DNA of 48,956 nucleotides, taken from the NCBI GenBank assembly GCA_900019385.1, contig FIZJ01000013.1:1-48956 (forward strand), written 5' to 3'. This DNA comes from an uncultured Clostridia bacterium (GTDB taxonomy: Bacteria > Bacillota > Limnochordia > Darwinibacteriales > DTU012). Below, piece by piece: positions 4,308 through 29,038 of this stretch (its first letter is position 1; each line of letters opens with the position of its first letter). Position numbers and translations under genes: made by a program. Below the pieces are notes generated by a model. It saw nothing but the letters and a program-made list of their open reading frames with translations. It had not been told where the DNA came from and did no database searches.

Positions 4308-5102
4308 GTGGTGAGGTTGGATGTTCGTCTTCGGTTCAGAATCCTTTATTACCTCCTGATCGTATTCTTCATAGCGATTTACCTAATCGCTATATGGTGC
4401 ATGGTTTCTGACAGGGTGCATTTTAGCGTGACATTATCGCTTTTTCTGACTCTTCATGTTGTGATTACCTCAATTGGCTGGCGGTTACCGATAATCCAAG
4501 CACGAGCTGGGATATTCCAGACTCTGACAGAAGGCCCCATTCACGAGATCACTACCGAGCTTCTGCGCAAAGCAGAGCTGAAACTCAAACAGATTCACGT
4601 GTTCATACAGCCTGCTAAGAGCTTTAACGCGATGGTAAACGGTTATCGGGATTATTTCTACATCATCGTGACCAAGCCCTTGCTTGAGACACTGTCCAAT
4701 GAGGAACTAAGGGCGATCTTAGCTCATGAGATAGCGCATATCAAGCATAAGGACGGTGTAAAAAGATTGTTTGATCTTTGGATGCTCATAATCCTCCCGA
4801 TGGGCCTGCTTACCACAGCCAACGTGTTACCAAAAGATTCTCTTTCCAGTAATCTCATCGGGACCATTGGTATCGTCAGCTTTGTTGTGTTGTTGCTTCG
4901 CTGGTTATCCAACACTAGAAAAGGCGAATACGCTGCAGACCGCTATGCGGCCGAGCTGATCGGTGACAAAGAAGCCCTGATTCGCGCACTGACAATTCTA
5001 AATGAGAAGTCCCGGTATAAGCCTGAATTTGCGGTATACAGACGGCCTCTCTTGACGCATCCTGATCTGAACTCACGCATTGCCAACCTACGTAAAGCTT
5101 AA
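4308..5102 (+). CDS. Membrane-bound M48-family metallopeptidase
   Basis: A 264-residue protein with two N-terminal membrane segments (about residues 10-32 and 40-60), a zinc site HEIAH (His140, Glu141, His144) and the third ligand Glu207 in GEYAADRY. A further hydrophobic hairpin (about 155-200) lies between them. This is the HtpX/Ste24 (M48) pattern, with the active site expected on the cytoplasmic face. The start is uncertain: GTG 4308 and GTG 4311 are close to the AGGAG, while TTG 4317 has better spacing. It has its own extended -10 promoter and is followed after about 50 bases by a small double-glycine-leader peptide gene, suggesting a role in maturing, clearing or tolerating that peptide. 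General membrane quality control is the alternative. Confidence 0.85.
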   Translation: MVRLDVRLRFRILYYLLIVFFIAIYLIAIWCMVSDRVHFSVTLSLFLTLHVVITSIGWRLPIIQARAGIFQTLTEGPIHEITTELLRKAELKLKQIHVFIQPAKSFNAMVNGYRDYFYIIVTKPLLETLSNEELRAILAHEIAHIKHKDGVKRLFDLWMLIILPMGLLTTANVLPKDSLSSNLIGTIGIVSFVVLLLRWLSNTRKGEYAADRYAAELIGDKEALIRALTILNEKSRYKPEFAVYRRPLLTHPDLNSRIANLRKA

Positions 5103-5153
5103 AAAGGATATCCGGGGATCCTTTTATGAATAAAGGAAAGGAGGTGGGTGTTC

Positions 5154-5417
5154 ATGGCCGAGCTCAGCAATCTGACTACCCTTGATGATGTTCAGTTGTT
5201 GGCGATTAACGGTGGTTTGGAACCTGATAAAATCGCATCCGGTCTAGGTGCAATCGCATCAGCCACATCCATAGCAGTACACCTAGGCGGAGCATCGATT
5301 TTCGGTATGAGCGTAGGATCTCTCTTGGCTTGCGGCCCCGTTGGATGGGCTATCGCAGGGGCAGTAGTCGTTGGGTCTTTTGTCGGCGGTTACTTAATCG
5401 GAGATGGGCTAAGATAA
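5154..5417 (+). CDS. Small double-glycine-leader peptide, bacteriocin-like
   Basis: An 87-residue peptide from the ATG at 5154, nine bases after AAGGAGG; GTG 5148 is too close to that site. The first 21 residues end in LLAINGG, a double-glycine leader of the type cut by C39-peptidase ABC exporters. The remaining 66 residues are very rich in Gly, Ala, Ser, Val and Ile, contain one Cys, and form a long hydrophobic stretch with several GxxxG-like spacings, as in class II two-peptide or membrane-active bacteriocins. No second peptide, exporter or dedicated immunity gene is visible nearby; the only candidate partner is the M48 membrane peptidase just upstream. The family is not certain; it could also be a signalling peptide. 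Confidence 0.65.
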   Translation: MAELSNLTTLDDVQLLAINGGLEPDKIASGLGAIASATSIAVHLGGASIFGMSVGSLLACGPVGWAIAGAVVVGSFVGGYLIGDGLR

Positions 5418-5458
5418 CCCCCTATCGCAGATATCCGTAGCACACTACACCCGTCATA

Positions 5459-5484
5459 AGACTGCCAGCCCGGACTGGCAGTCT
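5459..5484. terminator. Perfect 10-bp inverted repeat between convergent genes
   Basis: AGACTGCCAG and CTGGCAGTCT pair perfectly around a 6-base loop. It lies between the ends of the double-glycine peptide gene (+) and the helicase gene (-), so it may serve both directions, although neither side has a long T run. Confidence 0.55.
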
Positions 5485-5528
5485 AAATTTCAGAATCTTC
5501 CGTATTATATATTTTCGCTGCAATAAGA

Positions 5529-7784
5529 TTACAGAATGATCGATACCTGGTCCCTGTCCATCCGGGCGATACACTCTTTAATCTTGCCCCCCAAATATGC
5601 ATCCTCCAACGCAGCATTGCGCACCTGCCGCAGCAGATCAATTCCGCGCCGGAAAGCAAAAACCAAATCGCCTTCATCAATAGCCGCCGCATCCATCAAA
5701 GTGGAGAAACTCTCTCCATGCGACCAGCGGTAGGCCAAGAGCGCGATATGGTCGTTGAAGGTGACGGTGGAGTAGCCCAAGAACCGTTCTTCCATCTTGG
5801 CCAACTGAAACACAAACTTGTAGGCAGGCGCGAAATTGAGTCTATGACGGATCTTCACTTCGTTGCGGCGCGGCTCATAGCTGATGGCAACCGCCAGGGC
5901 ATTCAGCTCTTCCACAGAGTACTTATGGAACCACCCATCCATGAACAGTTCGGTGATCAACAGCTCATGACCGTGGATTTGACTGGCAAACTCACCAGCC
6001 GCTGTCAGCTGGTTGCCGTTGAGATAGCCCAAGGCCTCAAGCAGCGCTTTCTTGGATTGAAACTCCTGGTAATACCTTCCCTGGGGATCAATCTGCTGCT
6101 CCCGCTTCAGCAAAGCCTGGTAGCGGTTTTTCAGCTTGCGGTACTTCTTCTGATCGCGCAAGCACTTGCGCTGTTCTTCTCTGGAACACTCTTTCAAGGA
6201 CATTTGACTGAGTTTATCCTGGATAATCGCTATTTCCTGCCGCAGCTTCCGCTTCGATCGCGGATTCTTGGTCTTGCGCAGAATAGCCTGGAGCCGTTTT
6301 TTGTTCCGGACCAGCCGCTCATACTCCACAGGGCATGATTGGCTGTCCAAGTGTTCGCAGAATTTGTCCAGCTCCGCTTTTAACTCATCGATCTGCTGCC
6401 GCAGAAAACTCCTGGTGTCCAAAGCTTGGTATGTGGCGAAATTCTGCCCCAGGATGCGGTAAATGTGCTGCTCATCATAGTTTTTGATCAAATTCAGAAC
6501 AGAGTTGTATGTCAGGTTGAACTGGCTTTGCAGCGGCTCAATCTCAGACTCTTTCATACTCGGCAGTTCCTGCAGGTCGAAGTACTGGAAGTCCACTACA
6601 GTGAACACAAAGCCTTCCGTATCGATCCCCCGCCTGCCTGCGCGCCCAGCCATTTGATAGTATTCACGGTTGGAAATGGTGCGGAACGACTGGCCGTCCC
6701 ATTTGGTGCTGGAGTCAAAACAAACAGTGCGGCAGGGGAAGTTCAAACCCACTGCGAACGTTTCTGTACAGTACAAAACCTTGATCAAGCGGTGGGTGAA
6801 CAGGTCTTCCACCACATCTTTCAAAGCCGGCAGCATCCCGGCGTGATGATAACCGATTCCCTGCAGCAGAAGACTGCGCAAAGTACTCCAGCGGTCGCTC
6901 AGGATCGGGGGATAGCGCTCTGTCACTTCTTCGATCAACGCTTCCACCCGCCTGCGTTCCTTCGGCGTCAGGAAGTTGTGTTCCCAGCCAAGCTCCACCG
7001 CGTTGAGTTCTGCTTTTTTGCGGCTGAAGGTGAAAAAGAGACAGGGCAGGTAGTCATCCTTGATCGCTTTGATCAAATCCACATGTGTGGTCTTGGGCAC
7101 AGCCCGAGGATCGAGAGATTTTAGCCTGCCGCTTATTTTCTTATACTGCTTCTGGAACTGATTCACCGGCACCATGCCCAAACTTTGTTCATAGATAAAG
7201 TGGCGGAGAGGCACCGCCCGTTCAAAGTAAGTCACCACTTTAATATCCTGCTGTTTGATCTCGCTGATCCACGATGCCAGCTGAGTCACATTTGGAATTG
7301 TGGCGCTCAAGCCCAGAAACCGCATCGAATCCGGCATAAAAATCAGGCTTTCTTCCCAGACACTGCCCCGCTCGGGATCGTCGATGTAATGGATCTCATC
7401 GAAGATGACATAGCGGACATCAGCCACCCGCTCCGGCGATTCCTGGAGGAGATTCCGGAAGATCTCGGTGGTCATAATCAGAATTGAAGCATCGGGATTC
7501 ACAACTATATCGCCAGTCAAAATACCGACTGCTTCTTCCCCGAGAAGCGCCTTGAACTCCTTGAACTTCTGATTGCTCAACGCTTTGATCGGGGCGGTGT
7601 AGATCACCCGGCCATGTTCCCTGTACACTTTTTCGATCAGATAATCAGCGATCAATGTCTTGCCGGTGCCGGTGGGAGCCGCCACGAGTACGGAAAAGCC
7701 CTGGTCGATGTGCTCGATCGCTTCCTGCTGAAACGGGTCCAAGACAAAGCCCCGGTAATTCCTTTGTGTGCCCTCAATAATCAA
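5529..7784 (-). CDS. Ski2-like DEAD/DEAH-box RNA helicase
   Basis: A 751-residue protein starting at TTG 7784 behind AGGAGG. Visible motifs: a Q-like FQQEA, Walker A APTGTGKT (residues 36-43), DEIH (129-132), SAT, a TETFAVGLNFPCRT segment and motif VI QMAGRAGRRG, the last two typical of the Ski2/Mtr4 family. A highly charged, probably coiled-coil region rich in Lys and Arg (about 465-575) follows, then a C-terminal helical domain. Bacterial members (such as actinobacterial HelY) are presumed to unwind structured RNA; the substrate here is unknown. It lies 36 bases downstream of the ADP-dependent kinase gene and may share its transcript. Confidence 0.85.
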   Translation of the reverse strand: MIIEGTQRNYRGFVLDPFQQEAIEHIDQGFSVLVAAPTGTGKTLIADYLIEKVYREHGRVIYTAPIKALSNQKFKEFKALLGEEAVGILTGDIVVNPDASILIMTTEIFRNLLQESPERVADVRYVIFDEIHYIDDPERGSVWEESLIFMPDSMRFLGLSATIPNVTQLASWISEIKQQDIKVVTYFERAVPLRHFIYEQSLGMVPVNQFQKQYKKISGRLKSLDPRAVPKTTHVDLIKAIKDDYLPCLFFTFSRKKAELNAVELGWEHNFLTPKERRRVEALIEEVTERYPPILSDRWSTLRSLLLQGIGYHHAGMLPALKDVVEDLFTHRLIKVLYCTETFAVGLNFPCRTVCFDSSTKWDGQSFRTISNREYYQMAGRAGRRGIDTEGFVFTVVDFQYFDLQELPSMKESEIEPLQSQFNLTYNSVLNLIKNYDEQHIYRILGQNFATYQALDTRSFLRQQIDELKAELDKFCEHLDSQSCPVEYERLVRNKKRLQAILRKTKNPRSKRKLRQEIAIIQDKLSQMSLKECSREEQRKCLRDQKKYRKLKNRYQALLKREQQIDPQGRYYQEFQSKKALLEALGYLNGNQLTAAGEFASQIHGHELLITELFMDGWFHKYSVEELNALAVAISYEPRRNEVKIRHRLNFAPAYKFVFQLAKMEERFLGYSTVTFNDHIALLAYRWSHGESFSTLMDAAAIDEGDLVFAFRRGIDLLRQVRNAALEDAYLGGKIKECIARMDRDQVSIIL

Positions 7785-7820
7785 CTGGATCCTCCTTATG
7801 ATCCGGACTGCAAGCAGTAA

Positions 7821-9248
7821 CTAACAGTTGCACGATTTGACAGCTGCAAGTGACACTTCGGCGGCATAGGCGCTGGAAGATACGGTATCGCCCATTCCCA
7901 CAGTGCTGACAGGATTCGGGATCACGTGTGCCGGGACAACCAGCACCCAATGATCATCCATCTCCATGATGCCGGTATCCAGCATCTCGTCGGTTGCCGG
8001 CAGGCCTAGGCGCTTGGCTTCGCTGGCAAACGCTTTCAGCTGTTCCAGCCCAATCTCACTCAGCGGGTAATCCGCCATCCGGGCAACATCCTCCAGCGGC
8101 ACTGCCCCGCCCTGCATCGCCTTGACACCGTTCACTGCCGAGGCGAACAGGCAAGCCTGCCTTACTACTGCGGGATCCACGTCATACGGCTTCATCAGCA
8201 CAACTACATAATAACCAAGGTTGTGGAGTTGAATGCGGGATACTTTCAACTCCCGGGCAATCTGCAGTACGCCTTGGTACAGGCTGAATGCCCGTTCTTT
8301 TTTTACTATCTCCGCCACCAAATCTGGATGGCCCAGCTCGTCCAAGAGCCGGCGGATCTCGTTTTCATTGATACCAAAGCTGGTGAACAGCGGTGCGATT
8401 TCCCTCATCAAAATCACTTCATCCGCCGCATTGGGCATGGGCACGTATTCCAGATGAAGCTTGAGATTAGGATTCCCAGATTTCAAGCGTTTAAGGTCAT
8501 TGACGCTGAGATCAATGTATTCTGCCAGAGTCTCAGCCCGGCCCTCAATCCTCCCGTGGTGATAGCCTGCCATGAAGGCTAGATCAACACTTTGCCCGAC
8601 TTCGGCCAAGTGTGCCTCTATCACCGGATCGAAGCCCATGGCTGCTTTGGGGTTGCGGGTACCGAGGATGACCCGGTTGGCTCTCGGTGAGATGATTTCC
8701 TGATCGCCAAACTTAAAGATCGTCCCTTTGGGGTATTCGAAAATATAGTTGAGCTTGGTCCACTGATCATTGACAGCTGTCCTGATCGGAATCCAAGCGA
8801 ATTTGCCGTTGACCTTGGGATAAAACACCCTCTCGTCAAAGTGCGCTGCCTGCTTCGGGGATAGGACCGGGCAGTATACGCAGCTGGTCGCGCCCAACGC
8901 TGCCATTTGATTGGCGATGATTCCTGCCTGGCCGCCCATAGCTTCGGCCCGCTCGGGAAAGACCTGGTTGAACCAGTCGGAAAGGCTGGAATCCATCACA
9001 CCATAGTATGACTTCCCAACCTTGATGCATTCTTGAAGCAAGGCCATGAATTCCACATTGGTCTTGATCGGCCACACAGCGGTGGGATTCTCAGGTGCGT
9101 TTACCAGAACCTGTGGTTCCCGCTCAATGATCTTAGCGATCGTTGCTGCGTTGAGTTTGATCACAACATCGACATTGGCGTTAAATCCGGCCAGCACCCG
9201 ACAGTTGAGCTTGGTTTTCACCGCTTGTTTCAGTAGCTCTTTCCACAT
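7821..9248 (-). CDS. ADP-dependent glucokinase/phosphofructokinase family protein
   Basis: A 475-residue protein. The ATG at 9248 is chosen because a GGAGGAGAGG ribosome site lies directly before it; an upstream in-frame ATG overlaps that site. Features of the ADP-dependent sugar kinase branch of the ribokinase superfamily are visible: GFNANVD near the N-terminus, GGQAGIIAN, and a C-terminal NPVSTVGMGDT motif whose Asp (about 454) is the expected catalytic base. Such enzymes phosphorylate glucose or fructose 6-phosphate with ADP and are best known in Archaea and animals. Whether this one uses ADP, and on which sugar, cannot be told from sequence alone. It is followed after 36 bases by the helicase gene. 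Confidence 0.8.
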   Translation of the reverse strand: MWKELLKQAVKTKLNCRVLAGFNANVDVVIKLNAATIAKIIEREPQVLVNAPENPTAVWPIKTNVEFMALLQECIKVGKSYYGVMDSSLSDWFNQVFPERAEAMGGQAGIIANQMAALGATSCVYCPVLSPKQAAHFDERVFYPKVNGKFAWIPIRTAVNDQWTKLNYIFEYPKGTIFKFGDQEIISPRANRVILGTRNPKAAMGFDPVIEAHLAEVGQSVDLAFMAGYHHGRIEGRAETLAEYIDLSVNDLKRLKSGNPNLKLHLEYVPMPNAADEVILMREIAPLFTSFGINENEIRRLLDELGHPDLVAEIVKKERAFSLYQGVLQIARELKVSRIQLHNLGYYVVVLMKPYDVDPAVVRQACLFASAVNGVKAMQGGAVPLEDVARMADYPLSEIGLEQLKAFASEAKRLGLPATDEMLDTGIMEMDDHWVLVVPAHVIPNPVSTVGMGDTVSSSAYAAEVSLAAVKSCNC

Positions 9249-19752: not shown

Positions 19753-20511
19753 TTAGACAGTAATAATCAATCCGTCGTAGGCTAGCGACACAGCTGGCGG
19801 CAGCTGCCGGTTTGTCTGCTCATGGTCCAGAAGATGGGTGATGTGAGTGAAATATGTCTGCCGCGGCTTAAGTCTGGCGACAAGCTTCAAGGCGGCATCC
19901 ACGTGCATATGACTTGGATGAGGCTCGTGGCGGATCACCCCCAGGATCAGCACCTTTAAGCCCCGAAGCAGCTCCAGCGAGGCCTCAGGCAGCCGGCTGC
20001 AGTCGGTAATGTAGGCCAGATCACCGACGCGGTACCCATAAATCGGCAGATTGCCGTGGTACACCGGAATCGGGGTCACCGCAACCCCCTCCACTTGAAA
20101 AGGGCCGTCGACAACGATTGGCGTGACCAATGGCTTTCCGCCGCCTTCCTGAGTTCTGCGGAAGACATAGCCGAACACCTGCAGCATTTCGGCAATGGTG
20201 TCGTAATTGCCGTAAAATGGTACCGCCTTGCCCGAACGCTGGCTGAAAATGCGCAGATCATCAAAGCCGAAAACATGATCCGCATGGCAGTGAGTGTACA
20301 GCACCGCGTCGATCTGCTTAATCCCAGCCCGCAGGGCTTGAAGGCGAAATTCGGTGGCAGTGTCGATCAAAATGTGCAGACCGCCGGTTTCCACCAAAAT
20401 CGATGATCTGGTGCGGTGGTTGCGAGGGTCCATGCTGCGGCAGACTGCGCAATCGCATCCGATGACCGGAACGCCGTGGGATGTCCCGGTTCCCAGAAAA
20501 GTTACTTTCAC
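19753..20511 (-). CDS. PhnP-like metallo-beta-lactamase-fold hydrolase
   Basis: A 252-residue protein. The frame stays open far upstream, but GTG 20511 is chosen because a GGGGG ribosome site precedes it and the fold starts there (KVTFLGTGTSHGVPVIGC). The zinc motif THCHADH (His74, His76, Asp78, His79) and a cysteine set CDCAVC near the N-terminus, typical of the PhnP branch, are visible. PhnP cuts cyclic phosphodiesters such as phosphoribosyl cyclic phosphate; related proteins act on other phosphodiesters. It is transcribed away from the SOS-type cassette, and its 5' region shares the LexA boxes, so it could be co-regulated. Confidence 0.85.
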   Translation of the reverse strand: MKVTFLGTGTSHGVPVIGCDCAVCRSMDPRNHRTRSSILVETGGLHILIDTATEFRLQALRAGIKQIDAVLYTHCHADHVFGFDDLRIFSQRSGKAVPFYGNYDTIAEMLQVFGYVFRRTQEGGGKPLVTPIVVDGPFQVEGVAVTPIPVYHGNLPIYGYRVGDLAYITDCSRLPEASLELLRGLKVLILGVIRHEPHPSHMHVDAALKLVARLKPRQTYFTHITHLLDHEQTNRQLPPAVSLAYDGLIITV

Positions 20512-20535
20512 GTTGATCCCCCTAATATTTGCCAC

Positions 20536-20565
20536 TTGACGCGAACGTATGTTCTGTATTACAAT
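20536..20565 (+). promoter_or_regulatory. Promoter of the imuB-like / dnaE2 cassette
   Basis: TTGACG (20536-20541), an 18-base spacer and TACAAT (20560-20565). The spacer is filled by a LexA/DinR box, so repressor binding would block RNA polymerase. Confidence 0.75.
20542..20555 (+). promoter_or_regulatory. LexA/DinR box 1
   Basis: CGAACGTATGTTCT matches the Firmicutes DinR consensus CGAACRNRYGTTYC at all but the last base. It sits between the -35 and -10 of the cassette promoter. Confidence 0.8.
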
Positions 20566-20572
20566 AGACACA

Positions 20573-20586
20573 CGATCATATGTTCG
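20573..20586 (+). promoter_or_regulatory. LexA/DinR box 2
   Basis: CGATCATATGTTCG differs from the DinR consensus at two positions (the fourth and last bases) and is otherwise a full half-site pair. It begins 31 bases after box 1, about three helical turns, just downstream of the -10. Confidence 0.65.
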
Positions 20587-20601
20587 CAAGAGGTGATTCT
20601 G

Positions 20602-21552
20602 ATGATCGTCTACTGCGCCGTCGAACATGCGGGCGGTAAAGAAAAAATCTGCGAACAGCTGCTGCAGTTCTGCCGCGGCTGGACTGACCAGATTGAAATG
20701 GAAACGCCTTGTGCCTGGTACTGCCGCCTGCCGGATCACTTCATTCCCGCCGAATTGGGCGCCCAATTCTTGGCACAGCTGCAGGCCCATCGGCTGACGG
20801 GAGTATGGGGCGCCGGCGCCACCAAGCTGATTGCCAGGCTCGCCGCCCTCACCCGGCCAAACACTGCCGTCCCTGCTGCTGACAGCCGGGCTTTTCTGGC
20901 CGATCTGCCCATCACTCTGCTTGACAGCTTGTTCGCGCTGCCGGAGGTGCTGCAGCTGCAGCGCCTTGGGATCAACACCTTTCAAGCCTTGGCCCAGGTC
21001 CCTTTGGGTGCTCTGCAGCTTCAGTTCGGCAATACTGCCGAAACCCTGGCGAAACTTGCCCGCGGTTTGGATCTTGAGCCTTTTGTTCCAGATCAGCCGG
21101 TTGTCGTCTGTTGGGAATTTGACTTCTTGACCGATCCGGAAATCTCCGCGCCTGTCAGCCGCCCCCAACTGGATCTGTTTTTGGCCAAAGGCCTGGCCGA
21201 AATCGAGCAGCAGCTCCATTCCGCCCGGCTCCTCGCCGCCAGAATCCGCCTGGAATGGCGGCATGGGCGATCCGGTTCCGGCACGGTCCGCAAATTTGAC
21301 CCTCCGGCCGCGTCCGCAGATGTGCTTTACCGATCCCTGCTCACAGTCCTGCCGGACCATCCTGTCGAATCGATGCGGATCACCGGCCTGGACTTTGCGC
21401 CGCAGTCACCTAAACAATTAGACATCTTCGGGCAAAACCCTACCCGCAGAAAGCTCGAGTCGCTAAAAGCCCAACTGGGTGCCGGTTTGATCCAACTGCA
21501 GCTTTCCCGCCGCGAAAAAATCCTGGCATTGTGGGAGAAATCCCATCTCTAA
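20602..21552 (+). CDS. ImuB-like Y-family polymerase remnant with beta-clamp motif
   Basis: A 316-residue protein from ATG 20602 behind AAGAGGTGA. Residues from about 75 read as the end of the palm and thumb of a Y-family polymerase (GAGATKLIARLAAL, then helix-hairpin-helix-like LQRLGINTFQALAQVP), followed by a little-finger region (about 165-260). The N-terminal part with motif I is missing and the usual SPDEA-like acidic site is replaced by ETPCAWY, so catalysis is not expected. QLDIF at 272-276 fits a beta-clamp-binding motif, as in ImuB. By analogy it would tether DnaE2 to the clamp during damage tolerance. It lies under two LexA boxes, and a DUF6504-like ORF and dnaE2 follow it. Confidence 0.75.
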   Translation: MIVYCAVEHAGGKEKICEQLLQFCRGWTDQIEMETPCAWYCRLPDHFIPAELGAQFLAQLQAHRLTGVWGAGATKLIARLAALTRPNTAVPAADSRAFLADLPITLLDSLFALPEVLQLQRLGINTFQALAQVPLGALQLQFGNTAETLAKLARGLDLEPFVPDQPVVVCWEFDFLTDPEISAPVSRPQLDLFLAKGLAEIEQQLHSARLLAARIRLEWRHGRSGSGTVRKFDPPAASADVLYRSLLTVLPDHPVESMRITGLDFAPQSPKQLDIFGQNPTRRKLESLKAQLGAGLIQLQLSRREKILALWEKSHL

Positions 21553-21601
21553 GATCATCAACGGCGCGATTACCGTCAAAACCACCGGACAGCTGCCCTG
21601 C

Positions 21602-21784
21602 ATGTTTGTCTATCATAAACCATATCAAATCGAGTCCATCAAAGATCGCTGGCGGGAAGCGGGGCAGTGGTGGCTGGGGGAACAAGAACTCCATGTTTAT
21701 CAGGTGATCGCCGCCGGCACCCTGTTTGAGCTTCATTATTATCCGGCCCAGTCCCGCTGGATTCTCCACAAAATCCATGACTGA
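21602..21784 (+). CDS. DUF6504-like small protein, possibly fused to ImuB by frameshift
   Basis: At least 60 residues, with SIKDRWREAGQWW in its middle, matching the DUF6504 pattern often found with or at the end of ImuB-type proteins. The first ATG (21602) has no ribosome site, and the homologous-looking part clearly begins earlier (GAITVKTTGQLPC), in the same frame but with no ATG, GTG or TTG available there. Two ways to reach it are an ATC at 21545 spaced seven bases after GGGAG, or a +1 slip at the imuB end where CTC TAA G could be read TCT AAG. Role unknown; it sits between imuB and dnaE2. Confidence 0.55.
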   Translation: MFVYHKPYQIESIKDRWREAGQWWLGEQELHVYQVIAAGTLFELHYYPAQSRWILHKIHD

Positions 21785-21809
21785 CAGCATTGATCCGTAG
21801 GTGGTTTAT

Positions 21810-24800
21810 ATGTTCGCCCATTTGCATGTCCATTCCGTTTATTCCTTCCTTGACGGCGCCGCATCCGTCGGCGCATACCTGCAAAAAGCCGCCGAGTTCG
21901 GCATGACGGCCATGGCCCTGACCGATCACAACTGCCTCAGCGGCGCGGTGGAATTTCATAAAACCGCCCTCGAACTCGGCATCAAACCGATCCAGGGCGT
22001 GGAAATCACCCTCGAAGGCGGGTATCACCTCACTTTGCTGGCCCAGAACAATGCGGGCTACCAAAACATCTGCCAGCTCCTGACCGCCGCCTTTCAGGCA
22101 GATCGCAAGCAGCCGGTTGTCACCTGGGAAAAACTGGCCGCCTACCATCAAGGGTTGCTGGCGCTCACCGGCTGCCGCCGCTCGGCCCTCTGGCGGGCTT
22201 TGCTCTGCAATCAATATCAGGCGGCCCTCAAACACCTGCAGCGGCTGATCTCCATTTTCGGCAGAGAAAATGTCTATCTGGAAATGATCAACACTTTTTT
22301 GCCCAAAACCGGTTCCGTCCTCAAGGCAATCGCCCAATTGAGCGAACACGCCAAAGTGCCCATGGTCGCCACCAACAACGTCCATTATCTGGAGAAAACC
22401 GGGTTCGCCCTTCACGATCTCCTGGTCTGCACCCGCACCCAGACCCGGCTCGCGGACATCCACCCTGAACGGCCCTTGAATGGGGAGAACTACTTCGCGC
22501 CGCCCGAGGAAATGGCTTTCCGGTTTCAGCAGTACCCGCAGGCGCTTGCCGCAGCGGAAGAAATCGCCGAACGCTGCGAGGTGTCGCTGCCTTTGGGCCG
22601 CAACCTCTTCCCCCGGTTCCAGATTCCGGCAGGGTTCAGTTCGGCAAAGCAGCTTTTGCACCACCTGGTATGGCAGGGAGCCCAAGAGCGGTACGGGAAC
22701 ATCACGCCGGAGATCCGGGAGCGGCTGGAACACGAGTTAAGCATCATCGAGCAGTTGGATGTGATCGATTATTTCCTCGTGGTCTGGGATATCGTCGCAT
22801 ACGCCCGCCGGCACCGGATCCGCCACGCGGGCCGGGGCTCGGCCGCCGATTCCGCCGTCGCCTACTGCCTGGGGATCACCAATGTCGATTCCATCGGGCG
22901 CAATCTCCTCTTTGAACGGTTCTTGAGCCTTGAGCAGGCCCGCAAGCCCGATATCGACGTCGATTTCGACGCTGCCAAACGGGATCAGATCGCCGAATAT
23001 GTCTACCAAAAATACGGCAAAGGCCATGTGGCCTCTGTCTGCACCTTTGTAACATACCATGCCCGTTCTGCCCTCAGGGATCTGGCCAAAGCCTTTGGGT
23101 TCAGCGAGGAAGAAATCAAGCGGCTGAACCGCCATATCCCCCACTACGTACCGGCCGACGGGATCCGCAAAGTCCTTGCCGTGCTGCCGGAACTGAAAAA
23201 CCACCCGCTCAAGCAAAAGCAATATACTGCGCTGCTGGACTTGTGCGAACAGCTGACCAATGTGCCGCGGCATATGGGGACGCACTTGGGGGGAATGGTA
23301 GTCAGCGGGCCGCTTCTGACCACCGTAACACCGCTGCAGCCTTCCGCCAAAGGCGTGTTGATCACCCAGTTTGACAAAGACACTATTGAAAATCTGGGCC
23401 TGATCAAGCTTGATTTGCTCTCCCTCAGGACTTTGTCGGCTGTCCATGCTGTGGATACTGCCCTGCAGGCCAAGGGCGGTTTCAGTTATGATCAAATTCC
23501 TTTGGACGATCCGGCAACCTACAAGCTGCTGAACCACGGCGACACTGTCGGGGTGTTCCAATTGGAAAGCCCGGCCCAGCGCAGTCTGCAGTCACGGCTT
23601 TTAGCGGACAACATCGAGGATATTGTGGCCAGCGTGGCTTTGATCCGCCCCGGCCCCATCAAGGGCGACATGGTTGAACCGTTCATCGCCCGCCGCCATG
23701 GATTGGAACCGATCAGCTACATTCACCCAAAATTGGAGCCGATCTTGAAGGGTACTTACGGTGTGGTGCTCTACCAGGAACAGGTAATCGAAATTGCCAC
23801 GGAAATCGCTGGCTTCACTCCGGGAGAAGCGGACCACCTGCGCCGGGTGATGTCCAAATACCGCTCACAAAAAGAGATGGATCAGATCGGCGAGCTGTTC
23901 ATTGCCAAAGCGACTGCCAATGGGATCAGCAGAGAAGTCGCCGAGACCATCTTTTCGTACATCGTCGGGTATGCGGGCTACGGCTTCTGCGAGGCCCATG
24001 CCGCCGCTTTTGCCGATACCGCCTACAAGACCGCCTATTTGCTCAAGCATTATCCGGCCCAGTTTTACGCCGCCATCCTGAACAATCAGCCTATGGGGTT
24101 TTACCCGCCGAACACCATTTGTGTGGAAGCCCGCCGCCGGGGAATCACCATCCTGCCGCTGGACATCAATCAAAGCGAGGCGGATTTCACCGCTGACGAC
24201 ACTTCCATCCGGATTGGTTTGAAGCAGGTAAAGAGCATGGAGGCCAGGTTCATGGAGGAAATCCTGAGTCAGCGCCGCAGCAGGCCTTTCGCCTCCCTGG
24301 CCGATTTTGTCTACCGCACCAGCTTAAGCAAGGATGTGATCGAAAACCTGATCCTTGCCGGCGCCTTTGACCGGCTTAATCCCAACCGCCGCTCCCTGAT
24401 CTGGCAGCTGCCCCATTATCTCAGCCGCCGCCAGGGAAGCCTGTTTTTCCTGGAGGAAGAACCGGCGCAGCCTGTCTCCGATTTCACTCCCTGGCAGCGC
24501 TGGCTCAATGAGTTCCGCGTGTTGGGCTTGTCCGCCACCACCCATGTGATGGACTTTTTCCGGCTGCGCCTGCAAAAACAGCGGTTTGTCACCAGCCGCG
24601 ACATCGCCGGCTTGGCCGAGGGTGCCAAAATCAAGATCGCCGGGCTGGTGATCCGGCCTCACCGGCCGCCGACCCGGAGCGGCAAAATAGTTGTTTTTCT
24701 CACCTTGGAGGACGAATTTGGCCTGATTGATGTCACTGTCTTTGAAAACATCTACCACCGCTATGGGGAAAAGCTGTTCAAAAACCCCTTGCTGAGCATT

Positions 24801-24887
24801 GAAGGCACTGTGGCCCGCCGCGGCGGCAACGAAGCGGGTATTGTCGCCAACCGGATTCAACCCCTCACCCAGGCTCAAGCCTGGTAA
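21810..24887 (+). CDS. dnaE2: Error-prone DNA polymerase III alpha subunit, DnaE2 type
   Basis: A 1025-residue protein from ATG 21810, five bases after AGGTGG; GTG 21801 overlaps that site. The PHP domain opens with HLHVHSVYS and continues with ALTDHN. The catalytic aspartates are Asp381 and Asp383 (KPDIDVDFD) and Asp535 (IKLDLLSLRT). The ILNNQPMGFYPPN segment is a hallmark of the DnaE2/ImuC branch rather than of replicative DnaE. An OB-fold domain lies at about 940-1025; length is typical of DnaE2. It makes translesion synthesis with ImuB at the clamp, under SOS control. The last 23 bases overlap the end of the convergent ypeB. Confidence 0.88.
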   Translation: MFAHLHVHSVYSFLDGAASVGAYLQKAAEFGMTAMALTDHNCLSGAVEFHKTALELGIKPIQGVEITLEGGYHLTLLAQNNAGYQNICQLLTAAFQADRKQPVVTWEKLAAYHQGLLALTGCRRSALWRALLCNQYQAALKHLQRLISIFGRENVYLEMINTFLPKTGSVLKAIAQLSEHAKVPMVATNNVHYLEKTGFALHDLLVCTRTQTRLADIHPERPLNGENYFAPPEEMAFRFQQYPQALAAAEEIAERCEVSLPLGRNLFPRFQIPAGFSSAKQLLHHLVWQGAQERYGNITPEIRERLEHELSIIEQLDVIDYFLVVWDIVAYARRHRIRHAGRGSAADSAVAYCLGITNVDSIGRNLLFERFLSLEQARKPDIDVDFDAAKRDQIAEYVYQKYGKGHVASVCTFVTYHARSALRDLAKAFGFSEEEIKRLNRHIPHYVPADGIRKVLAVLPELKNHPLKQKQYTALLDLCEQLTNVPRHMGTHLGGMVVSGPLLTTVTPLQPSAKGVLITQFDKDTIENLGLIKLDLLSLRTLSAVHAVDTALQAKGGFSYDQIPLDDPATYKLLNHGDTVGVFQLESPAQRSLQSRLLADNIEDIVASVALIRPGPIKGDMVEPFIARRHGLEPISYIHPKLEPILKGTYGVVLYQEQVIEIATEIAGFTPGEADHLRRVMSKYRSQKEMDQIGELFIAKATANGISREVAETIFSYIVGYAGYGFCEAHAAAFADTAYKTAYLLKHYPAQFYAAILNNQPMGFYPPNTICVEARRRGITILPLDINQSEADFTADDTSIRIGLKQVKSMEARFMEEILSQRRSRPFASLADFVYRTSLSKDVIENLILAGAFDRLNPNRRSLIWQLPHYLSRRQGSLFFLEEEPAQPVSDFTPWQRWLNEFRVLGLSATTHVMDFFRLRLQKQRFVTSRDIAGLAEGAKIKIAGLVIRPHRPPTRSGKIVVFLTLEDEFGLIDVTVFENIYHRYGEKLFKNPLLSIEGTVARRGGNEAGIVANRIQPLTQAQAW

Positions 24888-26181
24888 TCTTCTCTTCCGC
24901 GCCGTTTTCGGCGTTGATATAGATCAAAAACTGGTCTGGCCCCTGTTTTACCCGAAATTCATATGTAAGTTTTTGCTCGAAGTTCGGATCAAGAATCACC
25001 GCTGGGCGCTGCTCCAAAATCTCCGCTGTCTCGATCACAAACGCCCGGGCTTGTTCCGGGCTCAATACCGGCGTGGCCTTCCTGATATAGGCGAAAGCTT
25101 GGTAGGCCAGGCCTTGGTAGCCCACGATCTCACCGTTGTCGGCAGCCACCTGGACCTTAAGCTGCCGCGGGTAGACGAGCACTCCCTCTTCCACCACGAC
25201 AAAGCTGCACATCAGCCGGTTCAAGTTCCAATCGGTGTCCACCAGCTCCACTTCGGGGAACCCCCGCTCTTGGAGGAACTGCACTGCATAGGCGGCCATC
25301 TCTCCTTCAGTAAGCTGCCGTTTTTGCACAATCCTGGGGTTGATCATCCACAACACATGGCCGCCATCTTTGGCGATCTCGATGGTGATGGGGTCTTTTC
25401 CCCCAGCTGCGGCGGTGACTGTATAGGTCGGGAACTCACCCTCTGTTAGATTGGTGACGGCCAGTTCCCTGCCGGCGGCCTGTTCGGGCATAAAGGCTTT
25501 GGCCGCGGCCACCGCTTCCGCTTCCGAAATCGGCTCTCCCGTAGGCAGCGGTGCCTTCAGGCGCTTGATCTCGCTGGGAAAATCCGAATCATAGAACCGA
25601 TCCATGCCGTCCTCGATCATCAACAGCGCCTGCATCAAAGGTTGTTGCTCACCGAAAGCAGTCTCGGCAGGCGACAAGAGCGATGCGTACATGAAACCGC
25701 CCCGGACAGTCCAGCTGGTTTTGTGCTCTCCGAGAGCCAACTGAGCCTGCAGCTCATTGTTGACATACCTTACCTGCTCATATAGCTGGGAGAGTTCATT
25801 CCGCACTGCATTTAACGGCTTGGTTTCATGCATGCCCTGGGCTGCTTCCACTGCGACTGCCTGAACCCTGGCCAGCAGGTTCTCAATTCGAGCCAGATTC
25901 AAGCCGTGAATCGGCAGCTGCCCTAGATTAGCCTGGGCAGCGTAGACCAGGCGCAGCACATTTGCCAGCCCACCAAACTGCTGTGTGGGTGAATTGGCCA
26001 CCAAAAGCTTGCTCAACTCCGTCTCCATACCGTCGATATGCACCGCCAACTCTCTAAAGGCGCGCCTGTAGCCCGCTTCCAACTGCAGACGGTAAGCCCG
26101 GTTGGCATAATACTGGCTGCCGGCCGCGGCGGCCAGGATGACTATGAGCGTGAAAATCACTGGCGTCTTGATTCTCTGCAC
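24865..26181 (-). CDS. ypeB: Spore germination protein YpeB
   Basis: A 438-residue protein from GTG 26181, seven bases after AGGGGTAGG. One N-terminal membrane segment is followed by a helical region and then tandem PepSY-like repeats in the C-terminal half (for instance ISEAEAVAAAKAF and LTEGEMAAYAVQF). In Bacillus, YpeB is needed for correct placement and stability of the cortex-lytic enzyme SleB in the spore envelope. It lies directly downstream of sleB, as expected. Its 3' end overlaps the convergent dnaE2 by 23 bases. Confidence 0.9.
   Translation of the reverse strand: MQRIKTPVIFTLIVILAAAAGSQYYANRAYRLQLEAGYRRAFRELAVHIDGMETELSKLLVANSPTQQFGGLANVLRLVYAAQANLGQLPIHGLNLARIENLLARVQAVAVEAAQGMHETKPLNAVRNELSQLYEQVRYVNNELQAQLALGEHKTSWTVRGGFMYASLLSPAETAFGEQQPLMQALLMIEDGMDRFYDSDFPSEIKRLKAPLPTGEPISEAEAVAAAKAFMPEQAAGRELAVTNLTEGEFPTYTVTAAAGGKDPITIEIAKDGGHVLWMINPRIVQKRQLTEGEMAAYAVQFLQERGFPEVELVDTDWNLNRLMCSFVVVEEGVLVYPRQLKVQVAADNGEIVGYQGLAYQAFAYIRKATPVLSPEQARAFVIETAEILEQRPAVILDPNFEQKLTYEFRVKQGPDQFLIYINAENGAEEKITRLEPG
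24869..24884. terminator. Palindrome in the overlap of two convergent genes
   Basis: CCAGGCT and AGCCTGG pair perfectly around CA, inside the last codons of both dnaE2 and ypeB. It could act as a bidirectional terminator, but the loop is only two bases and neither flank has a long T run. Confidence 0.35.
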
Positions 26182-26195
26182 TTTGCTACCTACCC

Positions 26196-26696
26196 CTAAC
26201 TTGTGAAGATATGCCGCCCGATTTTCTTGACCACCGGCCGTGTTCTGATCCACCTGTTCCGCGTCTTGGCTGGATTGTAGAAATATAAAGCTCCGTTGGT
26301 GGGATCCACGCCGTGGAGGGCATCATAAGCTGCCTGCAGCGAAACCTCATCCGCCTTCTGGTTGATCGTCCCGTTGGCCACCACCTGAAACGCCAGCGGC
26401 TCGTAAATCACACCGGCAATTGTGTTGGGAAACTCCGGATGCTCGACCCGGTTGAGGATCACCGCCGCCACTGCCACCTTGCCTTCATAAGGCTCGCCTT
26501 TTGCCTCGGCATGGACTGCCCGGGCCAGCAAATCCAGTTCATTGTCCTTGATCGTCAGCCGCGGCGTTTTTTCAGGTTCAGACTCAGGTGTTTTGTCTTC
26601 CGGGACTTGGACTTGATTGATCCATTGGATGACCACCAGTGAAGCGGCGGCCAAACACAGCACCGCATAGATGAGGTACACTCTTTGAAGCCGCAT
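26196..26696 (-). CDS. sleB: Spore cortex-lytic enzyme, SleB/CwlJ family
   Basis: A 166-residue protein with an N-terminal membrane or signal segment (about 6-26) and the SleB hydrolase_2 domain (about 50-166). The domain shows LLARAVHAEAKGEPYEGKVAV with the catalytic Glu, and AVILNRV. It is a lytic transglycosylase that opens the muramic-lactam cortex during germination. The peptidoglycan-binding domain of Bacillus SleB is missing, so it is catalytic domain plus anchor only. Start codon and spacing are less clear (AAGGCG before ATG). It is followed directly by ypeB. Confidence 0.88.
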   Translation of the reverse strand: MRLQRVYLIYAVLCLAAASLVVIQWINQVQVPEDKTPESEPEKTPRLTIKDNELDLLARAVHAEAKGEPYEGKVAVAAVILNRVEHPEFPNTIAGVIYEPLAFQVVANGTINQKADEVSLQAAYDALHGVDPTNGALYFYNPAKTRNRWIRTRPVVKKIGRHIFTS

Positions 26697-26818
26697 CGCG
26701 CCTTAATGCCCCCTTTCACCTAGATCCAGTCATAGCCTATCCAGAACACTGCACTTGTATCTACTCCTTCTGACTGAAAACTGTTTTGCCGCAAATACTA
26801 AACCCGAGGTGATGGCTG

Positions 26819-29038
26819 ATGCTTGCATGGTTGAAACGTTACCGTCTTACAATACTGGCTTTGTTCCTGCTGATGCTGCTTCCGTTCGCGGTTGTTTTCA
26901 TCAAAGGGTATTTCACGATCCGTGCTTTTGATATCGGCAGGCCGATGCAGACGGCTGTGGTGTTTGATCGGGAGGGCAGATTCATCGGTGCTCTTGGTGA
27001 AACGGGGCGCTATGTGACTATCGGTGCCATTCCTCAGGACCTGGCCGACGCAGTTGTGGCAGTGGAAGACTTCCGGTTTTACAAACACTCTGGAGTCGAC
27101 ATCATTGGGATTGCCAGGGCGCTTGTGGCCAATCTCCGCGCCGGCGAAACAGTGCAGGGGGGAAGCACCATCACTCAGCAAGTGGCCAAAAACCTGTTCC
27201 TTACTCCCCGGCGCACTTTGAAGCGCAAATTCGAAGAACTGGCCTTGGCCTTGCTCCTGGAAGCCAGGTTTTCCAAGGAGCAGATTTTGGAGCTCTATTT
27301 AAACTCCTCTTACTTTGGCGAAGGGGCATATGGAGTGGAAAGCGCTGCCCGGACGTATTTCGGCAAGGCTGTATCTGAACTGACTCTGGACGAAAGCGCC
27401 ACGCTTGCCGGGCTGCTCCAAGCGCCCTCGGCCTATTCACCTTACAAATACCCGGAGCGGGCCCTGAACCGGCGCCGCATCGTGCTTGACCGCATGGTGG
27501 AGCTAGGCTATTTGAACCAAGCCGAGGCCGACCGGGCCGCTTCGGCCGGCTTGGAGTTGGCCAAACGCACTGGTGGGCTCGCCCGCTATTTTCTGGACTG
27601 GGTCAGCCAGATTCTCATCGAACGATTCGGCGAAACCACTGTCTTCGGCGGAGGGCTCCGGGTTCACACATCTCTTAATCTGGAAATGCAGAAGATAGCC
27701 GAAACACTGTTCGCGGATCAGGAGCACCAAGGGGCCCTTGTGGCCATCGATCCCCGGGATGGGACTGTGTTGGCTTTGGTCGGCGGGAGGAATTATATCG
27801 AGAGCCCGTTCAACCGGGCGGTCGATGCCAAACGCCAGCCGGGCTCGGTATTCAAACCGATCGTCTATGCCGCGGCCATCAAACAAGGCTGGCAGGTCAA
27901 CTCCATCGTGGAAGACATCCCTCGGGAATACAGCGGCTACAAACCGGAAAACTACGAAGAAGCCTATTGGGGCCCTGTCACCATGAAGCACGCCATCGCT
28001 CTTTCGCTGAACAACGCGGCGGTGTGGACCCTGAATGAAATCGGTATCTCGAGCGTGTTCAGCTTCGCCGAAGCAGTGGGGATCAAGCTTCCCCCCCAGG
28101 ACCGGAACCTGGCATTGGCTTTGGGAGGGCTGACCGAAGGAGTGAGCCCGCTGCAGATGACTGCCGCCTTTGTCCCTTTCGCCAACGGCGGCGCCTATTT
28201 CACGCCAAGCCCGATCCTCAGAGTGATCAACCAGGACGGAGACGTACTCTTTGACTTCGAACCGGACAAGAATCAGGTTTTGTCGCCGCAGCAGGCCTAT
28301 CTCATGTGCGATATGCTGCAGGCTGTGATGGAATACGGCACCGGCCAGGCTGTGCCCGTAGAGCGCCCTTCGGCCGCCAAATCCGGAACTACCAACAACC
28401 AGAGGGATCTCTGGTTTGTAGGCTTCACCCCTGATCTGGCGGTGGGGGTGTTCATCGGTAATGACGACAATTCACCAATCGCCGGTTTCGGCGGTTCCAC
28501 AGCCGGACCGATTTGGGCCGAATTCATCAATCAGGCTCTGGCCGACAAACCGCCCCGTCCGTTCCCGGTCCCCTCCTTGATTGTGGACGATGTGCAGATC
28601 GACATTTTCACCGGCCTGCTCGCCAATGATCAGTGTGAATGGACCGAATTCGACGCTTTCATCAAAGGAACAGAGCCCACCAGGCAGGCCCCCTGCGCCA
28701 TCAGGTTCGCGCCGCAGCCTAGGATCAGTGTCCCCATTCCCGAACTACCGCCGGCGGAAGAACAGCCGCCCATGCCTGAAGAACCCGAACCCGAACCTGA
28801 GCCTGAGCCGGAACCTGAACCGGAACCTAAACCTGAACCTGAACCCGAGCCCAAGCCGGAACCTGAGCCGGAAAAGCCCCAACCGGGACCGCAGCCGCCG
28901 TTATCACCGGAGGAACCTCCGGTCCAGCCTCAACCTCCACCGGCCGAACCGCCGAACAACGCAGCGCCAATTCAGCCACTGCCTCCAGTGGGCGGCCGCA
29001 ATAACGCCGGCAACAATGAAAAAACCCCGCAACCATAA
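26819..29038 (+). CDS. Class A penicillin-binding protein (PBP1A-like) with Glu-Pro repeat tail
   Basis: A 739-residue bifunctional enzyme. One membrane anchor (about 10-30) is followed by the glycosyltransferase family 51 domain with the catalytic Glu83 (EDFRFYKH) and QGGSTITQQVAKN. The transpeptidase domain has all three motifs: SVFK (Ser343-Lys346), SLN (396-398) and KSGT (521-524). It polymerises and crosslinks peptidoglycan outside the membrane. The last 90 residues or so are a low-complexity EPEP/KPEP stretch ending in proline-rich and Asn-rich sequence, a probable cell-wall-spanning tail. The start follows GAGGTG. Its stop codon lies in the loop of the terminator below. Confidence 0.93.
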   Translation: MLAWLKRYRLTILALFLLMLLPFAVVFIKGYFTIRAFDIGRPMQTAVVFDREGRFIGALGETGRYVTIGAIPQDLADAVVAVEDFRFYKHSGVDIIGIARALVANLRAGETVQGGSTITQQVAKNLFLTPRRTLKRKFEELALALLLEARFSKEQILELYLNSSYFGEGAYGVESAARTYFGKAVSELTLDESATLAGLLQAPSAYSPYKYPERALNRRRIVLDRMVELGYLNQAEADRAASAGLELAKRTGGLARYFLDWVSQILIERFGETTVFGGGLRVHTSLNLEMQKIAETLFADQEHQGALVAIDPRDGTVLALVGGRNYIESPFNRAVDAKRQPGSVFKPIVYAAAIKQGWQVNSIVEDIPREYSGYKPENYEEAYWGPVTMKHAIALSLNNAAVWTLNEIGISSVFSFAEAVGIKLPPQDRNLALALGGLTEGVSPLQMTAAFVPFANGGAYFTPSPILRVINQDGDVLFDFEPDKNQVLSPQQAYLMCDMLQAVMEYGTGQAVPVERPSAAKSGTTNNQRDLWFVGFTPDLAVGVFIGNDDNSPIAGFGGSTAGPIWAEFINQALADKPPRPFPVPSLIVDDVQIDIFTGLLANDQCEWTEFDAFIKGTEPTRQAPCAIRFAPQPRISVPIPELPPAEEQPPMPEEPEPEPEPEPEPEPEPKPEPEPEPKPEPEPEKPQPGPQPPLSPEEPPVQPQPPPAEPPNNAAPIQPLPPVGGRNNAGNNEKTPQP

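Follow-up and report, generated by a model that had tools for sequence, protein, structure and literature searches.

Several gene arrangements for translesion synthesis that lack ImuA have been described in bacteria; the papers cited here are represented by excerpts of their text. Kyrpidia tusciae carries an ImuA-less set formed by an inactive Y-family polymerase (PolY), a standalone ImuB-C, a name that comes from PMC3765255, and the polymerase DnaE2 (PMC6511836). In Deinococcus the order is lexA-imuY-imuB-C-dnaE2, and mutagenesis data accompany it (PMC8072749), and the combination DnaE2X-iPolY-ImuB-C-RecA is reported from bacteria with each of the three types of replication system (PMC12926913). 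In this work we analyzed an operon located at positions 20536-24887 of contig FIZJ01000013.1, a stretch of 48,956 nucleotides (nt) referred to here as the window, which is one contig of the 2.17-Mb draft genome of an uncultured Clostridia bacterium (G000; 71 contigs, 97.7% complete). The operon encodes iPolY (ImuY), ImuB-C and DnaE2, and this three-gene set, predicted to be SOS-controlled and to serve error-prone copying of DNA, is real but belongs to a known kind of system. A preliminary description of the locus had proposed a DnaE2 polymerase, LexA control and the lack of ImuA, all of which stand, LexA control by sequence; its suggestion that the ImuA-less arrangement is novel is not supported, given the three systems just cited. 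That description mentioned neither the lack of a canonical ImuB-C start nor the missing fingers of iPolY. The new element that we predict is a near-cognate start codon of ImuB-C, conserved in one lineage.

Near-cognate starts have precedents. The gene infC starts with ATT in Escherichia coli and with ATC in Streptomyces, and the GTC start of sigR holds SigR below its partner (PMC5472188); in vitro, the initiation factor IF3 disfavours weak codon-anticodon pairs (PMC10158994). Among open-licence PubMed Central papers, no title or abstract beginning that matched the topics of AUC/ATC starts and ImuB-C mentions a near-cognate start of ImuB-C, and the search of this collection yielded no paper on DUF6504 and none on Limnochordia with DnaE2. 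We consider it probable that the locus is a LexA-controlled translesion-synthesis operon in which ImuB-C is initiated at an AUC codon overlapping the stop codon of iPolY.

Start codon of ImuB-C

Nine genomes, namely that of the window and eight relatives, make up all the carriers of the module in families f1 and f2 (genomes, loci and families bear our own numbers, preceded by G, L and f), and in them ImuB-C has no ATG, GTG or TTG start; these codons are missing from the upstream stop to an ATC, and also from the next 8 codons. The predicted start site reads ATC TCT AAR in the nine genomes (AGG in G003). The ATC sits 7 nt past the Shine-Dalgarno core GGAG and shares bases with the stop codon of iPolY, the overlap being ATCTCTAA, or ATCTCTAG in the case of G003. 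At the corresponding site, ATG or GTG was found in all 21 other members of the order first read (in G026 one codon later), and the f3 genomes read afterwards gave ATG (G022, G030) and GTG (G025); many f3 genomes also have a GGAG at the corresponding place, with a distance of about 8 nt to the ATG. By these traits, i.e. a near-cognate codon conserved in 9/9 genomes together with a Shine-Dalgarno sequence and the lack of ATG, GTG and TTG, the gene falls in the class of near-cognate starts.

A survey of 70 loci of the class gave ATG in 37, GTG in 8 and TTG in 9, no canonical start at that site in 14, and 2 in which the motif was not found. The 14 comprise the nine ATC cases and five members of f9/f16 that have a different, longer N-terminal region. 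Weak starts recur in ImuB-C, since family f10 (L200-L208, L210, L211, L241) uses TTG at 9 of 12 loci, with ATG at 2 and GTG at 1. For comparison, when the start of infC was read by homology in these genomes and others close to them, 11 of the 13 rows gave ATT (G011 has ATC and G008 is ambiguous; G003 gave no match); in the window genus and in G005 there is also an in-frame ATG two codons upstream.

A separate candidate, an ATA that opens the ImuB-C of a Bacillota genome right after a stop (L179 4492, the same place as L281; two relatives have GTG), was discarded as a conserved near-cognate start because it is a lone case: in the order of that genome, where ImuB-C was found in 37 of 42 genomes, the start was readable at 22 of the 30 loci listed (the motif used was missing from the other 8), and 21 of these have ATG or GTG and L179/L281 none.

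In the nine genomes ImuB-C is under purifying selection even though synonymous sites are near saturation: the ratio of nonsynonymous to synonymous differences (pN/pS) is 0.13-0.61, with pS of 0.65-0.99 between genera. The WRE-G-WW core of the protein is conserved in all of them. The last leucine codon of iPolY is CTC in 9/9, a codon that accounts for 10-28% of the CTN codons in these genes (naive product 3.4e-7), and this choice keeps serine as residue 2 of ImuB-C; the glutamate codon of the Shine-Dalgarno sequence is GAG in 9/9, with GAG representing 17-42% of glutamate codons (naive product 1.2e-5). The codons that preserve GGAG and Ser2 look constrained. In addition, the Shine-Dalgarno duplex has an energy of -6.5 to -7.3 kcal/mol; of the 277 windows within iPolY, no more than 2-13 are as strong. 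From the sequence, AUC initiation coupled to the termination of iPolY is the best reading of the ImuB-C start, and the ribosome-binding site, the match to an M-S-K protein start and the serine constraint all fit such a termination-coupled reinitiation.

Several observations weigh against this interpretation. Four genomes (G005, G007, G008, G009) have GTG or TTG 9-10 codons past the ATC. For the T of the ATC, a wobble base, the codon test is weak (product 0.029), and the conserved terminal leucine of iPolY could alone keep the C. Because the nine genomes are related, the naive products overstate significance; with one genome per genus they become about 5e-5 (CTC) and 8e-4 (GAG). The codon tests were, besides, chosen after the junction had been seen, and for both reasons these numbers are support, not proof. 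The ATG would have been lost if 11 nt had been deleted between two TAA repeats in a junction like that of G011, but which event came first cannot be read from the tree. The monophyly of f1 plus f2 is neither shown nor rejected (p-value of the approximately unbiased test, p-AU, 0.40). As to the partner proteins, only part of the RecA-contact motif of iPolY can be made out, in the end of its model that has low confidence, and at 97.7% completeness the absences of ImuA and of other Y-family polymerases are not final.

It is unlikely that ImuB-C has decayed or starts elsewhere and that the conserved ATC merely reflects two overlapping frames. Every constraint on ATCTCTAA is indeed shared with the iPolY frame, and the downstream GTG or TTG codons of the four genomes mentioned above could serve as starts; however, the pN/pS values and the core retained in all nine argue against this reading, and the nine genomes do not share any alternative start. 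The first ATG that follows in the window (21602) is 19 codons past the ATC and would remove 19 residues, and in L140 and L141, the named copies of G004 and G003, there is no alternative before the core. The GAG and CTC choices would, moreover, be left unexplained.

A programmed +1 frameshift at the end of iPolY (CTC TAA R), which would fuse iPolY and ImuB-C and recreate a canonical ImuB, we rate slightly lower still, because slippage looks unfavourable at this site and the spacing does not fit. The ImuB-C frame is the +1 frame, and in all nine genomes at least 6 codons 5' of the ATC are free of stops in it, the fusion would yield the layout of ImuB, and CTC TAA is kept in 8/9, with CTC TAG in the remaining one. 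In the prfB frameshift, the Shine-Dalgarno sequence is about 3 nt 5' of the slippery codon, whereas here GGAG precedes CTC by 9 nt and stands at 7 nt from the ATC, so that the junction, with CTC as its codon, departs from the prfB type. Judged from base pairing, re-pairing from CTC to TCT is poor; CTT, a good prfB-like codon, occurs in G011 but in none of the nine; slippage at CTC would pass over TCT, the codon for the very serine that the CTC choice preserves; and no other conserved slippery site was seen in the stretch between the frames.

The three proteins and the control of the operon

The iPolY model has a mean predicted local distance difference test score (pLDDT) of 86.7, with values of about 47-66 from residue 271 on. 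Among the best 50 rows, it matches Y-family polymerases (Pol IV, Rev1, Dpo4) with Z of 16.7-19.3; the structural alignment covers about 257 residues, with a root mean square deviation (rmsd) near 16 because the domains are shifted, and 162 residues align with 4dez at an rmsd of 2.6. The first strand of the protein reads IVYCAVEH, and the segment between this strand and the next helix, which from the Y-family domain layout we take to be the position of the fingers, is absent in the four window-genus genomes that carry iPolY and in G005 (five genomes of two genera), as well as in G011; the 8 other aligned relatives (of 14) retain it. According to the model, iPolY is an inactive (dead) Y-family polymerase that has lost the fingers region. 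The motif QLDIF, presumably a clamp-binding site, has invariant Q and L and a nearly invariant F in the 14 aligned sequences. RREKILALWE is kept at the end of the protein, and the terminal leucine of iPolY is conserved in 14/14. By eye, LKAQLGAGLIQ of iPolY may be set against IEKQFGKGSIM of the host's own RecA (RecA-NT motif), with glycines that are not kept in relatives. The loss of the fingers region is an extension of the known reduction of ImuB, not a surprise, because ImuB proteins are already reported to be drastically reduced in some cases (PMC12926913).

A RecA-family search of the genome returned RecA itself as the single match, and neither ImuA nor a second RecA-like protein, in line with the absence of ImuA. 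With no ImuA match and a split ImuB, a canonical ImuA-ImuB-DnaE2 cassette was rejected for this locus. On a Thermomicrobium roseum plasmid (L197 1203-6668), an annotated recombinase A lies directly 5' of an ImuB-like open reading frame (ORF) and DnaE2.

The ORF previously called DUF6504-like is a standalone ImuB-C. When a profile of 32 standalone proteins was compared with 4 full ImuB proteins using hhalign, the match had an E value of 5.8e-4 and a probability of only 29, and it fell on columns 437-515, which correspond to the C-terminus; the Pfam DUF6504 score of the ORF is 20.3 bits, below the cut-off of 24.2. Since iPolY and ImuB-C lie in separate reading frames, this is probably not an ImuB with a fused ImuB-C. 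The ImuB-C model is nearly all-beta; against solved structures it gave no sequence match and a best structural Z of 5.7, which is background level. In a Fimbriimonadales genome (L193 ~4400-7911), a weak ImuB-C match is found at the front of a 1199-amino acid (aa) ORF holding DnaE2, as if ImuB-C were fused to the DnaE2 N-terminus.

The assignment of the polymerase to DnaE2 was upheld by its position in a tree obtained by a quick method without bootstrap (53 rows, with one DnaE1 and four DnaE2 as named references): it groups with DnaE2 with a value of 100 in the Shimodaira-Hasegawa-like approximate likelihood ratio test (SH-aLRT), apart from E. coli DnaE1 and from the other DnaE of the genome, and its clade-mates are proteins of Alicyclobacillus and other Bacillota. 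The sequence NQPMGFY, proposed earlier as a hallmark, is present in the window protein and in the DnaE2 proteins from Sphingobium, Agrobacterium and Thermomicrobium that served as references, but was not found in E. coli DnaE1 or in the second DnaE; it is not universal, however, as several DnaE2 of the same clade carry a variant or lack it. The polymerase aspartate motifs are kept (PDIDVD and KLDLLSLR), and the C-terminal tau-binding domain is missing, the protein ending just past the OB domain (945-1022 of 1028). A search for a separate replicative polymerase found both PolC and the second DnaE in the host genome, so that DnaE2 is not the sole alpha subunit. That it would be a replicative or lagging-strand alpha subunit instead of a translesion polymerase is very improbable and was rejected: its score with the NCBIfam error-prone model (910.9) falls under the curated cut-off of 939, which leaves it outside PRK05672 by that threshold, it reaches 896 with the replicative DnaE model and, throughout the class, DnaE2-like matches that cover most of the query are common, but the error-prone model still ranks first, the tree, PolC and the second DnaE argue otherwise, it lies in an operon with LexA-like sites, iPolY and ImuB-C, and it is absent from the same-genus genome G002. 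Given that PF00817, the Y-family catalytic domain, has no match in the host genome (6/6 relatives searched have one), DnaE2 may be the only translesion polymerase of the host, subject to genome completeness.

Other DnaE proteins deserve a comment. The second DnaE (L092, G000:C16 ~25940-28348) is a short, 1006-aa ORF with a reduced middle region that forms a long-branched clade with its counterparts of the order. The DnaE2 of G028 (L066) has CTG at the start position, where relatives have ATG, TTG or GTG. In family f7 (L267, L269; G042, G037), the DnaE2 belongs to another branch, near plasmid DnaE2 references, and a weak ImuB-C-like match occurs close by on the same contig.

Two DinR/LexA boxes had been noted around the promoter; both are present, CGAACGTATGTTCT and CGATCATATGTTCG, each one base off CGAACN4GTTCG, and they recur upstream of relatives. 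The count in the whole window is unremarkable alone (4 matches vs 1.35 expected; 7 of 100 shuffles reach 4), but two boxes within 45 nt at a promoter are notable, the local expectation from the rest of the stretch being about 0.00. When up to two mismatches were allowed within 150 nt, LexA-like sites were found 5' of the module in 18/18 modules checked in the class (local expectations 0.00-0.20), and in many relatives a box likewise falls in the spacer that follows a -35 of the TTGAC type. The genome was also searched for lexA and has one LexA; LexA-like sites are located in front of lexA, and one precedes recA. Genome-wide, LexA-box matches are not enriched (134 and 122 vs control counts of 248 and 246), and single matches elsewhere therefore mean little. 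At sequence level, the sites in 18/18 modules and the presence of lexA agree with SOS control, and LexA would bind the boxes of the module.

Operon layout and genomic context

The earlier observation that LexA boxes, an imuB-like gene, a DUF6504-like ORF and DnaE2 stand together was confirmed, and they form one operon; after the promoter the genes follow tightly packed on the + strand (Table 1). The iPolY frame runs from ATG 20602 to the stop at 21552, and the small ORF is taken with its full span instead of from ATG 21602. For DnaE2 the start is most likely ATG 21810, preceded by AGGTGG, and not GTG 21801.

Table 1. Features of the operon and their positions in the window
Feature	Position	Strand	Remarks
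Promoter-like elements	20536..20565	+	TTGACG (-35), TACAAT (-10), 18-nt spacer; read from sequence
LexA/DinR-type box 1, CGAACGTATGTTCT	20542..20555	+	between -35 and -10
LexA/DinR-type box 2, CGATCATATGTTCG	20573..20586	+	3' of -10
iPolY/ImuY, inactive Y-family polymerase homologue (by model), 316 aa	20602..21552	+	lacks the fingers region; QLDIF resembles a clamp motif
TGGGAG with GGAG Shine-Dalgarno core	21532..21537	+	inside iPolY end, 7 nt before ATC
ImuB-C (DUF6504-like), 79 aa	21545..21784	+	predicted AUC start overlapping iPolY stop
DnaE2-type error-prone polymerase, 1025 aa from ATG	21810..24887	+	GTG 21801 possible alternative start

ImuB-C is present in 33/36 genomes of the order and in 68/72 of the class. 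At 54 of 55 named loci it is followed on the same strand by DnaE2 (at L160, the exception, none is in view), and an iPolY-like match occurs at 48/55, on which grounds the operon is of the imuY-imuB-C-dnaE2 type. None of the three genes was found in G002 (96% complete).

On the - strand, two convergent ORFs are located at 24865-26696; we take them to resemble the germination proteins YpeB and SleB, which would fit a spore former. The divergent gene at 19753-20514 (-), which in our view reads like a metallo-beta-lactamase-fold phosphodiesterase, has apparent antisense traces of the same protein 5' of iPolY in G007 and G015.

Proposed mechanism and comparison with known systems

According to the mechanism that we infer, damage to the DNA would lead RecA to inactivate LexA, which would switch on transcription of the operon. 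Dead iPolY, devoid of fingers, would contact both RecA and the sliding clamp, and together with the small beta-domain protein ImuB-C it would carry DnaE2 to stalled forks, where mutagenesis would follow. The GGAG inside iPolY would position ribosomes at the AUC that overlaps the iPolY stop, so that little ImuB-C would be produced, in an amount that depends on the translation of iPolY. By analogy with sigR, the AUC would keep ImuB-C scarce. A more tentative proposal, which we regard as possible though rather less likely than not to hold, is that the AUC is a regulatory brake: IF3 discrimination and the coupling to iPolY termination would make ImuB-C limiting, and the mutasome would form only under strong induction.

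If the AUC start is true, it would add a gene to the short list of conserved bacterial near-cognate starts, and standard gene finders would probably overlook ImuB-C. If the brake also operates, start-codon control of SOS mutagenesis would extend across a whole bacterial lineage, in which this family would be missed by standard gene callers and by proteome-based polymerase surveys. A one-base change makes dosage control of the mutagenic complex testable.

With regard to its start, ImuB-C resembles infC and sigR in that a codon other than ATG, GTG or TTG is kept across a lineage together with a good ribosome-binding site, and in sigR the near-cognate start limits one partner of an operon (PMC5472188, as excerpted). 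In contrast, the gene of the window encodes a translesion accessory subunit and its predicted start overlaps the upstream stop.

As for the module, it shares with the ImuA-ImuB-DnaE2 mutasome of Mycobacterium and Caulobacter the LexA control, a dead Y-family scaffold and DnaE2, but it lacks ImuA and its ImuB is split into iPolY and ImuB-C. Its composition is the same as that of DnaE2X-iPolY-ImuB-C-RecA, as in Kyrpidia tusciae (PMC6511836, PMC12926913), although it has a reduced iPolY and a predicted AUC-start ImuB-C, neither of which is mentioned in the excerpts of those papers. It also resembles the imuY-imuB-C-dnaE2 genes of Deinococcus in having an inactive PolY, a standalone ImuB-C of about 80 aa and DnaE2 in the same order, without ImuA and under SOS control; unlike the Deinococcus module, the operon of the window does not include lexA, PolC is present in the genome, iPolY is fingerless and ImuB-C has no canonical start.

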